Of a stretch of 64,000 nucleotides of DNA, positions 4,352 to 7,288 are shown one piece after another. A program made the position numbers and the translations under genes. The stretch is from an uncultured Roseicyclus sp. (GTDB lineage: Bacteria; Pseudomonadota; Alphaproteobacteria; Rhodobacterales; Rhodobacteraceae), in assembly GCA_947494975.1 (NCBI GenBank), contig CANLXA010000003.1, positions 372,001 to 436,000 of the forward strand. Direction: 5' to 3'. The notes under the pieces are model-generated. The model saw only the letters and a list, made by a program, of their open reading frames with translations, was not told where the DNA came from and searched no databases. How positions within the stretch are numbered: the stretch's first letter is position 1; each line of letters opens with the position of its first letter.

Positions 4352-5155
4352 ATGAAACGCCTGCGTCCCTATCTCCAATTAACCACGGTGGAGGAGCTTT
4401 GGGCCCACCACACCCAGGTTCTGGCAAGCTATGGCTTTGACCGCGTCTTCTACGGCTTCAACGCGTTCCGGGGTGCGGGCCTCTACGACAACCCCGAAGA
4501 TGCGCTGCTGCTCACCAACATGCCCACCGATTATATCGAGGCCTATGTCGATGGCGGGATGTTCCGCAACGGCGTCATGATGCGGTGGGCCATCTCCAAT
4601 ACCGGCGCGGCCTCGTGGCGGGATGTCTACATGGCCATGGCCAACGAAGATCCGTCGCAGGGTGAGCTGGCGATGCGCGCACTGAACGAAAAGCACGGCA
4701 TCACGGCGGGCTACACGATCAGCTTTCCCATGGCGATCAAGAACGCCAATGCCGGCATCGGCATGGCCGTCAAGAAAGGCATGGGCCAGGATGAGGCCGA
4801 CGCGATCTGGGCCGAACATGGGCAGGATATCGAAACCATCTGCCATGTGGCGCATCTGTGCATTCTTCAGTTGCCCGCCACCGGTCAGCGCAAGCTGCTG
4901 ACGCCGCGCCAATCGGAGGTGCTGGAGCTTGTGGCCGATGGAAAGACCATGGCCGATATCGCGCTCCTGCTGGAACGCAACGTGGCCACGGTCGAGAAAC
5001 ACCTGCGCGGCGCGCGTGATGCGCTGGGGGTGGAAACTACGGCCCAGGCGGTGCGCAAGGCCTCGATCCTCAACCAGATCTTCCGCCTTGATGAACGGGA
5101 AGACCGCACCGAACGCCTGCCGCAGATGGCCGGATCGGTCGCCGACCGCCGCTGA
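4352..5155 (+). CDS. LuxR-family regulator with altered autoinducer-binding domain
   Basis: A 267-residue protein with an N-terminal autoinducer-binding-type domain (about 15-165) and a C-terminal LuxR helix-turn-helix (LTPRQSEVLELVADGKTMAD, then VATVEKHLRGARDALGV). In acyl-homoserine-lactone receptors the ligand pocket has invariant Trp, Tyr and Asp-Pro positions. Here the Trp position is Tyr61, Tyr65 is kept, and the Asp-Pro position reads Gly74-Val75 after Asn73; a Trp in AASWRD matches another pocket tryptophan. No luxI-type synthase is in the window, so this is a solo regulator that probably binds another ligand or none. AGGA precedes the ATG by seven bases. A candidate structured RNA follows immediately downstream. 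Confidence 0.87.
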   Translation: MKRLRPYLQLTTVEELWAHHTQVLASYGFDRVFYGFNAFRGAGLYDNPEDALLLTNMPTDYIEAYVDGGMFRNGVMMRWAISNTGAASWRDVYMAMANEDPSQGELAMRALNEKHGITAGYTISFPMAIKNANAGIGMAVKKGMGQDEADAIWAEHGQDIETICHVAHLCILQLPATGQRKLLTPRQSEVLELVADGKTMADIALLLERNVATVEKHLRGARDALGVETTAQAVRKASILNQIFRLDEREDRTERLPQMAGSVADRR

Positions 5156-5222
5156 ACCGGCTGCCCGGACGTTAAGCGAATCGAAACCTTGGGGTAAGGA
5201 TTCCCGCAGCTATCCCAAACAC

Positions 5223-5538
5223 TCCGAATGCCGCATATTGGCCATGTTCCGTGAGTGATGGCAATTACAGCCAGGAACGCCGGGTTCCGGAGCGGTATAG
5301 TCCCGCCTCCGGGCCCACCTTGAAGGCAGCAATGCCGGAAAGGGCCTGAAGCGGGCAGTTCGCATTTTCAGAACTGCATCATACGCTTCGGGGAAACGGT
5401 GGGGGCGCGATCTTGTCCATCTGCTCCTCCTTGTGCGGCGCGCGTCCCTCGCGCCATACGGCCGGTGCGTCTTGTCCCTTGTCCCTGCACCGGACCTAGT
5501 AAATGCGGCGCTGCCTTGTCCCTGGCAGCGCCGTTTTT
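5223..5538 (+). ncRNA. Candidate structured small RNA with seven or more hairpins
   Basis: This stretch between luxR and the VPLPA-CTERM gene has no credible ORF but contains a series of perfect inverted repeats: 5246-5250/5274-5278 enclosing 5259-5262/5270-5273; 5287-5292/5307-5312; 5325-5328/5333-5336 closed by a GCAA tetraloop; 5348-5353/5384-5389 enclosing 5355-5361/5371-5377; 5437-5442/5450-5455; 5462-5468/5487-5493; and the terminator 5507-5515/5524-5532. TTGTCC occurs four times (5413, 5472, 5479, 5516), mostly in loops or linkers, and an anti-Shine-Dalgarno-like CTCCTCCTT sits at 5424-5432. A possible promoter is TTGGGG (5189) with TATCCC (5211), spacer 16. The 5' end is a guess. It may be one RNA or two; it does not match 6S, tmRNA, SRP or RNase P RNA as I know them. 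Confidence 0.55.
5507..5538 (+). terminator. Rho-independent terminator of the candidate RNA
   Basis: A perfect nine-base stem GGCGCTGCC/GGCAGCGCC (5507-5515 and 5524-5532) with an eight-base loop is followed by five T residues after one G. It lies more than 350 bases beyond the luxR stop and 265 bases before the next gene, so it most likely ends the intergenic transcript. Confidence 0.85.
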
Positions 5539-5802
5539 CGTTTGAGCGCAACCAAGTCTGAGAAGCTTTCGTTCAGTTTGCCCAAATTTTCAGCAGCGAC
5601 AGGGACGCGCAGAAACAAAAGCCCTTGGGGCGCAGTTTTGTATTTCTATTGCAAACAACACGCGTCCGGCGCGCGCCCTCTTTGATATTAGTTGAGGTGA
5701 AAGCTCCCGTTTATGTTACCGTTTGGTGTGATTTGCGGCGACGACGGTTTTCGGTAGGTGCCCGAGCACGCGAACATTGGACTATTTCAGGGATGAGTAA
5801 TC
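5539..5802. other. Intergenic leader region of lower G+C
   Basis: Between the terminator and the VPLPA-CTERM gene there is about 260 bases with no credible gene. It is visibly richer in A+T than its surroundings and probably holds the promoter of the downstream gene. No convincing operator or promoter pair could be fixed by eye. Confidence 0.4.
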
Positions 5803-6333
5803 ATGAGACTTTCTTATATTCTGCTTGCCGCAGCGCTCAGCGTTTTGCCTGTGGTGGCCAACGCGTCGCTTGTCGTCACGATCGAACGTATTTCAGATAC
5901 GGTCGGAGTGTTCCGCGGCACTGGTACGATCGACGGTCCATACAGCGACGGTTGGCAAGGCTTCACGCACCTGTACTTCAGCGGCGCTGACGTCACCACG
6001 ATAGGCGGCGACGGCAATGACCCGTTCACAGGCGATTGGACGCTTGATGGCGGGACGATGTCCCGGTTCGTGAACACCCCAATTGGGACCAATGCGTTTC
6101 AGATGTTCTTTAATGGCGACGCAGCGGTCGGCTCCGGTTTCACCGGATCGCTTGCAGTGACGCTGGATGCTGAAACATGGTCGTCGGTCGGGACCAGCGG
6201 GACACTGGATTATGGTCTGGGTTCGTGGTCAATCATCGCTCCGGTCCCGTTGCCGGCGAGTTTCCCGCTGCTGGCCGTCGCCCTCGGTGGTCTTTACGGT
6301 TTGCATCGTCGCCGGAACCGCGCGGGCGCCTGA
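5803..6333 (+). CDS. VPLPA-CTERM sorting domain protein (secreted, unknown function)
   Basis: A 176-residue exported protein: signal peptide of about 21 residues (LLAAALSVLPVVANA), a Gly/Thr/Asp-rich body without a recognisable enzyme domain, and a C-terminal tripartite tail with APVPLPASFPLLAVALGG, a hydrophobic helix and then RRRNR. That tail is the VPLPA-CTERM signal, a PEP-CTERM-like tag of Rhodobacterales proteins thought to be processed by a dedicated exosortase and linked to surface or exopolysaccharide material. No exosortase is in the window. AGGGATGAG precedes the ATG. Codon use is less G+C-biased than in the flanking housekeeping genes. Confidence 0.85.
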   Translation: MRLSYILLAAALSVLPVVANASLVVTIERISDTVGVFRGTGTIDGPYSDGWQGFTHLYFSGADVTTIGGDGNDPFTGDWTLDGGTMSRFVNTPIGTNAFQMFFNGDAAVGSGFTGSLAVTLDAETWSSVGTSGTLDYGLGSWSIIAPVPLPASFPLLAVALGGLYGLHRRRNRAGA

Positions 6334-6361
6334 CACAAGCAAACATCACACCGCCAGTAAA

Positions 6362-6398
6362 AAGGGCAGAGGATCGTTCCTCTGCCCTTCTATTTTTT
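6362..6398. terminator. Bidirectional terminator between VPLPA-CTERM gene and tsf
   Basis: A perfect 12-base stem (6362-6373 with 6378-6389) closes a four-base loop TCGT. On the plus strand it is followed by CTATTTTTT, and on the minus strand by TTTTT, so it can end both convergent transcripts. Confidence 0.92.
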
Positions 6399-6412
6399 GT
6401 GATGTCCGGGGC

Positions 6413-7288
6413 TTAGCCCTGCGCGGCCTTTGCGACCTCGGCGGCGAAGTCTTCCTTCACCACTTCGATGCCTTCGCCCACTTCCAGCCGGACAAACCCG
6501 GTGATCGTGGCACCGACTTCCTTGGCGGCGGCGGCCACCGTCAGGTCGGGGTTCACGACAAACGCCTGATTGACCAGCGTGATCTCGGCCAGATACTTCT
6601 TCATCCGCCCCACGATCATCTTTTCGATGACCTGCTCTGGCTTGCCGGATTCGCGGGCAATATCGATCTGAACCTGGCGCTCTTTTTCGACCATGTCCTG
6701 ATCCACGGCGGCCTCGTCCAGCGCGGCGGGGTTGGCGGCGGCCACATGCATGGCGACCTGCTTGGCAAACGCCTCGTCGCCACCATTCATGGCAACCAGA
6801 ACACCAATCTTGCCCATGCCCTCGGCGGCGGCGTTGTGTACGTAAGACACAACCGTTTCACCCGAGAGCTTGGCCATCCGGCGCACGCCCATATTCTCCC
6901 CGATCGTGGCGATCTTGGCGGTCACGGTCTCGGCGACACTCTTGCCCCCCATATCCGCGGCCAGCAAAGCATCGAGGTCGTCCACGCCGACGGCGGCATT
7001 GGCGATGCCCGCCACCATCTCCTGGAACTCGGCGTTCTTGCCAACGAAGTCGGTCTCGGAATTCACCTCGACGGCCACGCCCGTGCCGCCGGATACGGCC
7101 ACAGCCACAAGGCCCTCAGCCGCCGTGCGGCCGGATTTCTTGGCGGCCTTGGCCAGGCCCTTGGTGCGCAGCCAGTCAACGGCGGCTTCCATGTCGCCAT
7201 CGGTTTCGGTCAGCGCCTTCTTGGCGTCCATCATGCCTGCGCCGGTCGAATCGCGCAGCTCTTTCACCATGCTTGCGGTGATTGCCAT
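6413..7288 (-). CDS. tsf: Translation elongation factor Ts
   Basis: A 291-residue EF-Ts, the nucleotide exchange factor of EF-Tu. The N-terminal UBA-like module reads [20 protein letters not shown], followed by the hallmark [12 protein letters not shown] near residue 77 and the core with coiled-coil. The start at 7288 is fixed by AGGAGAAGAGAC just upstream; the open frame continues into the end of rpsB but that extension has no family similarity. It lies 76 bases downstream of rpsB, the usual rpsB-tsf order, and ends at a strong terminator. Confidence 0.97.

Follow-up and report, generated by a model that had tools for sequence, protein, structure and literature searches.

RNAIII is the RNA output of the signal-responsive regulator of the staphylococcal agr system, and CsrB-type RNAs titrate CsrA. 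The Qrr sRNAs of Vibrio are driven by LuxO and sigma-54, and the LuxR on which they act belongs to a different protein family from the one considered here. Canonical AHL-binding LuxR proteins carry Trp57, Tyr61 and Asp70 (TraR numbering), and classical LuxR-activated promoters contain an inverted repeat that overlaps the -35 region and is centred near -42.5. For many LuxR solos, to our knowledge, the signal sensed and the genes controlled are unknown. The Rhodobacteraceae have many marine members that are important in carbon and sulfur cycling.

According to one report, LhrC uses three redundant UCCC sites to pair with G-rich ribosome-binding regions, and the use of UCCC by RNAIII is also mentioned there (PMC4132741). 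An RpoHI/RpoHII promoter is reported to drive a transcript that contains both the DUF1127 gene ccaF1 and the CcsR RNAs (PMC10253847).

Here we describe an RNA gene that follows a luxR-type gene in the window, by which we mean the whole 64-kb stretch of DNA that was analysed. Comparison among genomes, which considers sequence alone, establishes that this RNA is conserved, structured and terminator-ended, that its operator and -10 hexamer keep nearly fixed spacing, and that it is tied to a LuxR-type regulator. We filed the luxR-linked RNA as a new family of a known kind (regulator-driven sRNAs with repeated C-rich loops), in which the tie to a LuxR solo is what is new.

Limits, fold and operator of the luxR-linked RNA

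A preliminary description of this DNA had placed a chain of hairpins and an intrinsic terminator at 5223-5538. Both are present, and the predicted fold of the + strand of this interval (-148.1 kcal/mol) beats 100 dinucleotide shuffles (-125.9 +/- 5.3 kcal/mol; z -4.2; 0/100 as good), the fold of the - strand being weaker (z -2.0; 4/100 shuffles as good). The proposed end was kept, but positions 5223-5245 probably belong to the promoter, and we infer an RNA start near 5246, 90 nt after the end of the luxR-type gene. No peptide is predicted in the luxR-linked RNA of the window. The features are as follows:

4352 to 5155, + strand: luxR-type gene, 267 aa; Autoind_bind (PF03472) 105.6 bits, GerE (PF00196) 30.6 bits
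5194 to 5209, no strand: 16-bp operator GTAAGGATTCCCGCAG, an inverted repeat whose right arm is degenerate in the window's genome
5234 to 5239, + strand: -10-like hexamer CATATT (family form CAnnnT), which spans -12 to -7 when GTTCC is taken as +1
5246 to 5538, + strand: RNA gene of about 293 nt, its start inferred from the -10 hexamer and the 5' helix and its end from the terminator
5246 to 5278, + strand: hairpin 1, with GUUCC/GGAAC and GGC/GCC helices and the bulge GUGAGUGAU; nearly invariant across the family
5282 to 5316, + strand: hairpin 2, five pairs with compensating changes
5318 to 5344, + strand: small hairpin with a variable loop; compensating change at one pair
5345 to 5392, + strand: hairpin 3, with AUU in the loop invariant in 13 genus RNAs; seven pairs with compensating changes
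5403 to 5457, + strand: hairpins with approximate limits, UUGUCC and GUCCC unpaired; species differ in their number and length
5462 to 5493, + strand: hairpin with the tandem UUGUCCCUUGUCCC loop; C-G to U-A at one pair in two rows
5505 to 5538, + strand: intrinsic terminator with a UUGUCCC loop; two pairs with compensating changes, one of them in four rows

An alignment of relatives in which the stems were not preserved had been named as a result that would refute the RNA; this test was run, and compensating changes keep the stems. In the first two hairpins across 99 sequences, 84.7% of cells are paired (78.0% when shuffled) and 151 cells are altered on both sides, a number that 0/500 shuffles reached (58.2 +/- 10.5); the covariation score is 0.258, and slid partners give no more than 0.131. 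The second hairpin supplies all but two of these 151 cells. Since pairing in its helices reaches only 78.6% and 72.8% of cells, its shape is not universal. The helices of hairpin 1 are paired in 99.2% and 99.3% of cells, and this hairpin is too invariant to covary, except that two rows have GAC/GUC in place of GGC/GCC. Its inner part pairs differently in single-sequence folds of Roseicyclus-genus RNAs, and its GGC/GCC helix therefore rests on the wider family; RNAalifold also folds part of hairpin 1 differently, a difference that cannot decide the matter because the columns concerned do not vary. The genus alignment has compensating changes at 16/65 consensus pairs; one of these pairs belongs to the tandem-loop hairpin and two belong to the terminator.

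The proposal that this is an unnamed structured RNA is supported by these changes, by conservation across the family and by the lack of an Rfam family: searches of Rfam 15 gave no match at gathering score in the window, and 16 relatives had none with an E-value limit of 0.1. A tRNA/tmRNA scan found neither. We rejected a protein-coding reading because coding frames 1 and 2 stop within four codons in all seven of the genus members printed (of 13), indels change the length, and the loops of the 5' hairpin differ in length; the third frame is open throughout in three of the seven and broken in four, and formally a short frame late in the RNA could still exist. No description of this luxR-linked RNA was found in the literature searched, subscription journals being outside the reach of that search. 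PMC8632094 and PMC2864571 mention motifs of Rhodobacterales close to cco, cysS and metK, with no 'luxR' in the main text available, and 'LuxR' is likewise absent from the available main text of PMC5107571. PMC4809877 catalogues sRNAs of R. pomeroyi, and since its accessible parts give no positions, an unnamed R. pomeroyi sRNA may be the luxR-linked RNA.

The operator consensus of the family is approximately GTAAGGNWWNCCNKAC (given also as about GTAAGGnnnnCCTTAC), an inverted repeat. Across 113 loci, in which boxes were picked by a pattern that tolerates three mismatches, the 16-bp repeat begins 50-52 nt ahead of GTTCC; it is visible also without this choice by pattern, in a search of 29 loci of other genera. 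The CAnnnT hexamer of the same 113 loci has its A in 107 and its last T in 99. Among the matches listed, 110/119 stretches with the 5' hairpin have an operator starting at -48 to -54 (87 of them at -51), with no mismatch in 69, one in 38 and three in 3; it is missing from the other nine, two of which (L096 and L132) have a LuxR. The operator thus lies mostly at -51 to -36 from GTTCC with its centre at about -43 to -44, which fits the geometry of a LuxR-activated promoter if the predicted +1 is right. There are five copies of GTAAGGAATCCNTTACT in 295 genomes (reversed control 0), all of them 51 nt ahead of an RNA match, so that this strict form of the operator marks the luxR-linked RNA; looser operator sites elsewhere are not excluded. 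A sigma-70 scan of 4500-6500 called no promoter.

Further along the window, 5803-6333 encodes a secreted-looking protein without a Pfam match, whose C-terminal VPLPASFPLL...GLYGLHRRRNRA tail resembles a sorting signal. A separate terminator-like hairpin lies at 6362-6389.

Distribution and linkage to the LuxR-type gene

A DNA search located the RNA element in 13/13 genus genomes, and all 13 loci also have an orthologue of the LuxR-type gene 4352-5155. Wider draws used R1, a covariance model of the first 77 RNA positions. In the family draw, R1 matched 177/295 genomes, each from a different genus (E up to 1e-4); in the order draw it matched 139/195 genomes, all 139 in the same family (E up to 0.001); and in the class draw it matched 4/385, all four again from this family. 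Because the filters of these draws were strict, weak members were missed. Only one genome listed in the family draw, G252, has two RNA matches (C14:101027-101104 and C31:38159-38237).

When LuxR relatives were instead fetched by protein (212/295 genomes at E up to 1e-20) and the best 30 of these were read as loci, without an operator filter, 26/29 loci of other genera (L022-L050) shared the RNA beginning GTTCCGTGAGTGRTGGC...GCC..GGAAC. This beginning carries more changes in L031 and is absent from L040 and L046. A reverse scan of named genomes that did not depend on LuxR and used only the 17-mer of the hairpin returned at least 119 stretches, and the 80 titles seen are mostly of Rhodobacteraceae or roseobacters. 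Two 17-mer matches, in a Streptomyces (L091) and in a Bacteroidetes bin (L106), come without an operator and without LuxR, and are presumably due to chance. The hairpin, an exact operator and LuxR are all present in L083 (JACXUS010000038.1), from a bin labelled Sphingomonadales; either this bin is mislabelled or the module has been transferred to another order.

LuxR lies upstream on the same strand in 102/110 operator-bearing stretches among the matches listed; five of the remainder have too short a flank and three (L123, L154 and L168) have no LuxR. A slightly different rule, applied to the first 80 hairpin stretches listed, gave 67/73. At the thresholds used, 173 of the 295 family genomes have both the RNA and LuxR, 4 the RNA only, 39 LuxR only and 79 neither (Fisher p 1e-36, uncorrected for descent). 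The predicted RNA start is mostly 27-242 nt past the luxR stop in 109 loci, and in three of them it falls inside the luxR frame, which had been extended computationally. On this linkage and co-occurrence only, we predict that the LuxR-type protein is an activator of the RNA.

The 109 LuxR relatives depart from the canonical set of AHL-binding residues, as judged from an alignment based only on the spacing W-x3-Y-x8-D-P. At the position of the AHL-contacting Asp there is Ala in 76, Gly in 28 and another residue in the rest, and never Asp, although an Asp occurs one position earlier in 20/109. The Trp position holds Tyr in 103/109, and the Tyr position Phe or Tyr in 105/109. Autoind_synth matches above the cut-off were found in 13/13 genus genomes, the best at 31-41 bits and further ones weak; an AHL signal may therefore exist in the genus, and its perception by this LuxR has not been shown. 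The gene was also considered as VarR of Nautella, which the accessible parts of PMC4602140 call unique to disease-causing Roseobacter strains; this identity was rejected, without comparing the sequences, since the luxR-type gene is widespread.

C-rich loops and a second transcript

The preliminary description had counted four copies of TTGTCC, mainly in loops or linkers. They stand at 5413, 5472, 5479 and 5516 (+ strand), and all four are predicted to be unpaired: mean unpaired probabilities of TGTCC at these sites are 0.96, 0.93, 0.91 and 1.0, against 0.37 for the RNA overall. The TTGTCC count across the window is ordinary (32 vs 25 expected), and it is the clustering in the RNA that is unusual. 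The 13 genus RNAs contain 44 TGTCC where 4.7 are expected (maximum 11 in 200 shuffle sets), with two to five in each, at mean unpaired probabilities of 0.72 to 1.0 vs 0.32-0.40 over whole RNAs. In the window's genus the loop motif is UGUCCC in several copies; in other genera it is mostly AUCCCC. Within nt 81-230 of 100 RNAs of other genera, the commonest 6-mers are ATCCCC and CATCCC (68 each), whereas in 20 shuffled sets the best 6-mer reached 25 and ATCCCC averaged 10.3. The 115 C-rich motifs of these genera have a mean predicted unpaired probability of 0.69 vs 0.36 overall, and 63% lie above 0.7. [AG]TCCC occurs in the same stretch of 84/100 of these RNAs, a count without a control and over a stretch that can overrun the RNA end. 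The loops stay C-rich although the stems drift.

This comparison favours the earlier suggestion that the repeated loop motif provides equivalent sites, the binding of a target or a protein remaining inference. The LuxR-type operator and -10 hexamer, the near-invariance of the 5' hairpin, the tie to luxR and the second transcript had not been part of that description. The suggestion that the loops do not carry the CCUCCUCCC motif was also correct, since they carry UUGUCCC instead. CTCCTCCTT (5424-5432), likened to the anti-Shine-Dalgarno sequence, fared differently: only 2/13 genus RNAs have it, those of G000 (the window's genome) and its near twin G011, and it is thus not a conserved element.

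We searched the 13 genus genomes for AGGGACAAGGGAC, the complement of the tandem loop, allowing one mismatch, and found 38 places vs 36 for the reversed control. Thirty complement places were read as loci: seven are the RNA itself, four are the other strand of a second transcript and 19 are others, judged by eye; no shared mRNA site or gene recurs among the 30. Eight genomes have CGGGACAAGGGAC: four were read together, G008 fits by position, G001 and G005 represent the second transcript, and in G007 it is an unrelated site.

The search for tandem-loop complements led to this second genus locus, with GTCCCTTGTCCCG; where loci were read upstream, it comes after ppx/gppA. Sites of GGTARGGATTCCC number 18 across the 13 genus genomes (reversed control 0), seven at the luxR-linked RNA and 11 at the second locus, where G001 and G005, which lack the exact site, have GGTAGGGATTTCC and GGTAGGGAATCCC. 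In 13/13 genus genomes the second locus contains an operator, one or more UGUCCC and a 32-aa ORF of the MTALN.IACSA type, and a terminator-like hairpin comes next in the sequences read by eye. Its hexamer, TAnnnN, has the A in 11/11 and the last T in only 2/11, and lies one nucleotide nearer the operator than at the luxR-linked RNA, which at that offset has A in 1/13 and T in 3/13. A third operator-like site precedes small ORFs, with a (T/C)AnnnT hexamer in 10/10 sites found (11 loci); beyond these ORFs, in two genomes read on, is an apparent proS, recognised by eye. In the window's genome the operator of the second transcript is at G000:C1:804895-804907, and the surrounding L240 (G000:C1:801500-806500, minus strand) contains the 32-aa ORF, UGUCCC hairpins, a terminator, an operator-like site and small ORFs. 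Two small ORFs of L240 share GGWGIDRPAP, and none of its four small proteins has a Pfam match. That two unlinked transcripts share operator and loop motif is the best hint of one circuit of loop and regulator.

Outside the genus, no site of the expected form was seen by eye within 700 nt after ppx at 29 loci; two boxes with one mismatch follow ppx in other genera (L255 at 606, L272 at 348). The 32-aa ORF, searched against 248 family genomes, matched only its own genome, the other genus members not being in that listing.

Elsewhere in the genus, L223 (G003) has tandem GGTAGGGCCAAA-type half-operators immediately upstream of the third promoter, at approximately 310-360 nt from the operator, and L234 (G006) has a related GGTAAGGGCGGGCGCG-type repeat. 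L206 (G002) and L214 (G012), each seen once, show near their centres a (U)UGUCCCU that lies within or next to a terminator-like hairpin, and are possibly further transcripts with a UGUCCC-type loop. One-strand TTTTGTC(C/T)CTCGCC repeats occur in L197 (G006:C83 near 1425), on a contig that also has the RNA gene.

Proposed mode of action and related systems

The reading we lean towards, with rather more confidence than doubt and without expression, binding or target data, is a stand-alone small RNA that has its own promoter past luxR, is activated by LuxR and acts through its C-rich loops. LuxR with some ligand would bind the operator, centred at about -43 to -44, and recruit RNA polymerase. The C-rich loops that the RNA exposes, with UGUCCC in the window's genus and AUCCCC in many others, would serve as equivalent seeds that pair with G-rich stretches of mRNAs, probably ribosome-binding sites, and this pairing would lower the translation or stability of the targets. 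The nearly invariant 5' hairpin may protect the RNA or bind a protein. Within the genus, LuxR would also drive the second transcript, which combines the same loops with a 32-aa membrane-like peptide.

The main rival to this reading, which we think unlikely without dismissing it, is that the RNA works by binding protein: the C-rich loops or the 5' hairpin would titrate or carry an RNA-binding protein, and mRNA pairing would be secondary. The near-invariance of hairpin 1, bulge included, exceeds what a pairing seed appears to need, the number of loops varies from one genus RNA to another, the second transcript has the same loops, and no recurrent mRNA complement was found among the 30 places read in the 13 genus genomes. 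However, the motif differs by genus, which fits changing pairing partners equally well, and we know of no protein for such loops here. It is also conceivable that we are looking chiefly at the 3' part of the luxR mRNA, or at another cis element whose role is to protect or terminate the luxR message, with no action in trans. The shared strand, the distances from the luxR stop and the three starts inside the extended frame agree with such an element; it appears improbable given the nearly fixed spacing of operator and -10 hexamer, a size far beyond that of a terminator, the RNA without a LuxR match in 4/177 genomes, and the 3/110 operator-bearing listed stretches that lack an adjoining LuxR despite enough flank.

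A divergent CcsR (cuckoo) RNA is suggested by the hairpin chain with C-rich loops and by a match of the CcsR1 model (RF02791) to 5474-5539 (26.7 bits, E 0.00027). The features compared nevertheless speak against CcsR1: the score is below the gathering score of 65.3, CCUCCUCCC is absent from the loops, the upstream gene is of LuxR type, not DUF1127, and the promoter region shows an operator with a CAnnnT hexamer. With the 16 relatives also free of Rfam matches, we disfavour this identity and give it hardly any credence.

Beyond the stand-alone small RNA, we propose tentatively, and expecting that it could well prove wrong, a signalling module across the family. Its LuxR solo would have lost the AHL aspartate, its most conserved output would be an RNA and not a protein gene, and repeated C-rich loops would spread the signal; in the genus, the regulon would have been extended to the second transcript with its loops and peptide, and then to an operator-driven operon of small proteins. 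If true, alphaproteobacteria would have arrived on their own at a signalling output resembling RNAIII. The question of what a LuxR solo controls becomes testable here, since one operator and one RNA can be read from the sequence, and the promoter of the RNA lends itself directly to use as a reporter when screening for the ligand. The luxR-linked RNA also adds a family missing from the Rfam copy searched.

Like the Qrr sRNAs, which differ in their drive by LuxO and sigma-54 and in the family of their LuxR, the luxR-linked RNA would be a small RNA within a quorum-sensing circuit. CcsR1-4 of Rhodobacter sphaeroides come from the same bacterial family and share the hairpin chain with C-rich loops and the sub-threshold model match, which covers the terminator part of the RNA; they carry CCUCCUCCC, whereas the luxR-linked RNA has a LuxR operator and UGUCCC/AUCCCC. 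RNAIII resembles it in having C-rich loops and in being the RNA through which a signal-responsive regulator acts, and in the second transcript of the genus a short peptide is combined with loops of this kind. RNAIII differs in regulator, signal, sequence and phylum, and the window RNA has no predicted peptide. The LhrC sRNAs of Listeria belong to another phylum, with another sequence and regulator (LisRK) and five gene copies, yet with redundant UCCC in loop, linker and terminator loop (PMC4132741) they are the closest analogue in the way they work.
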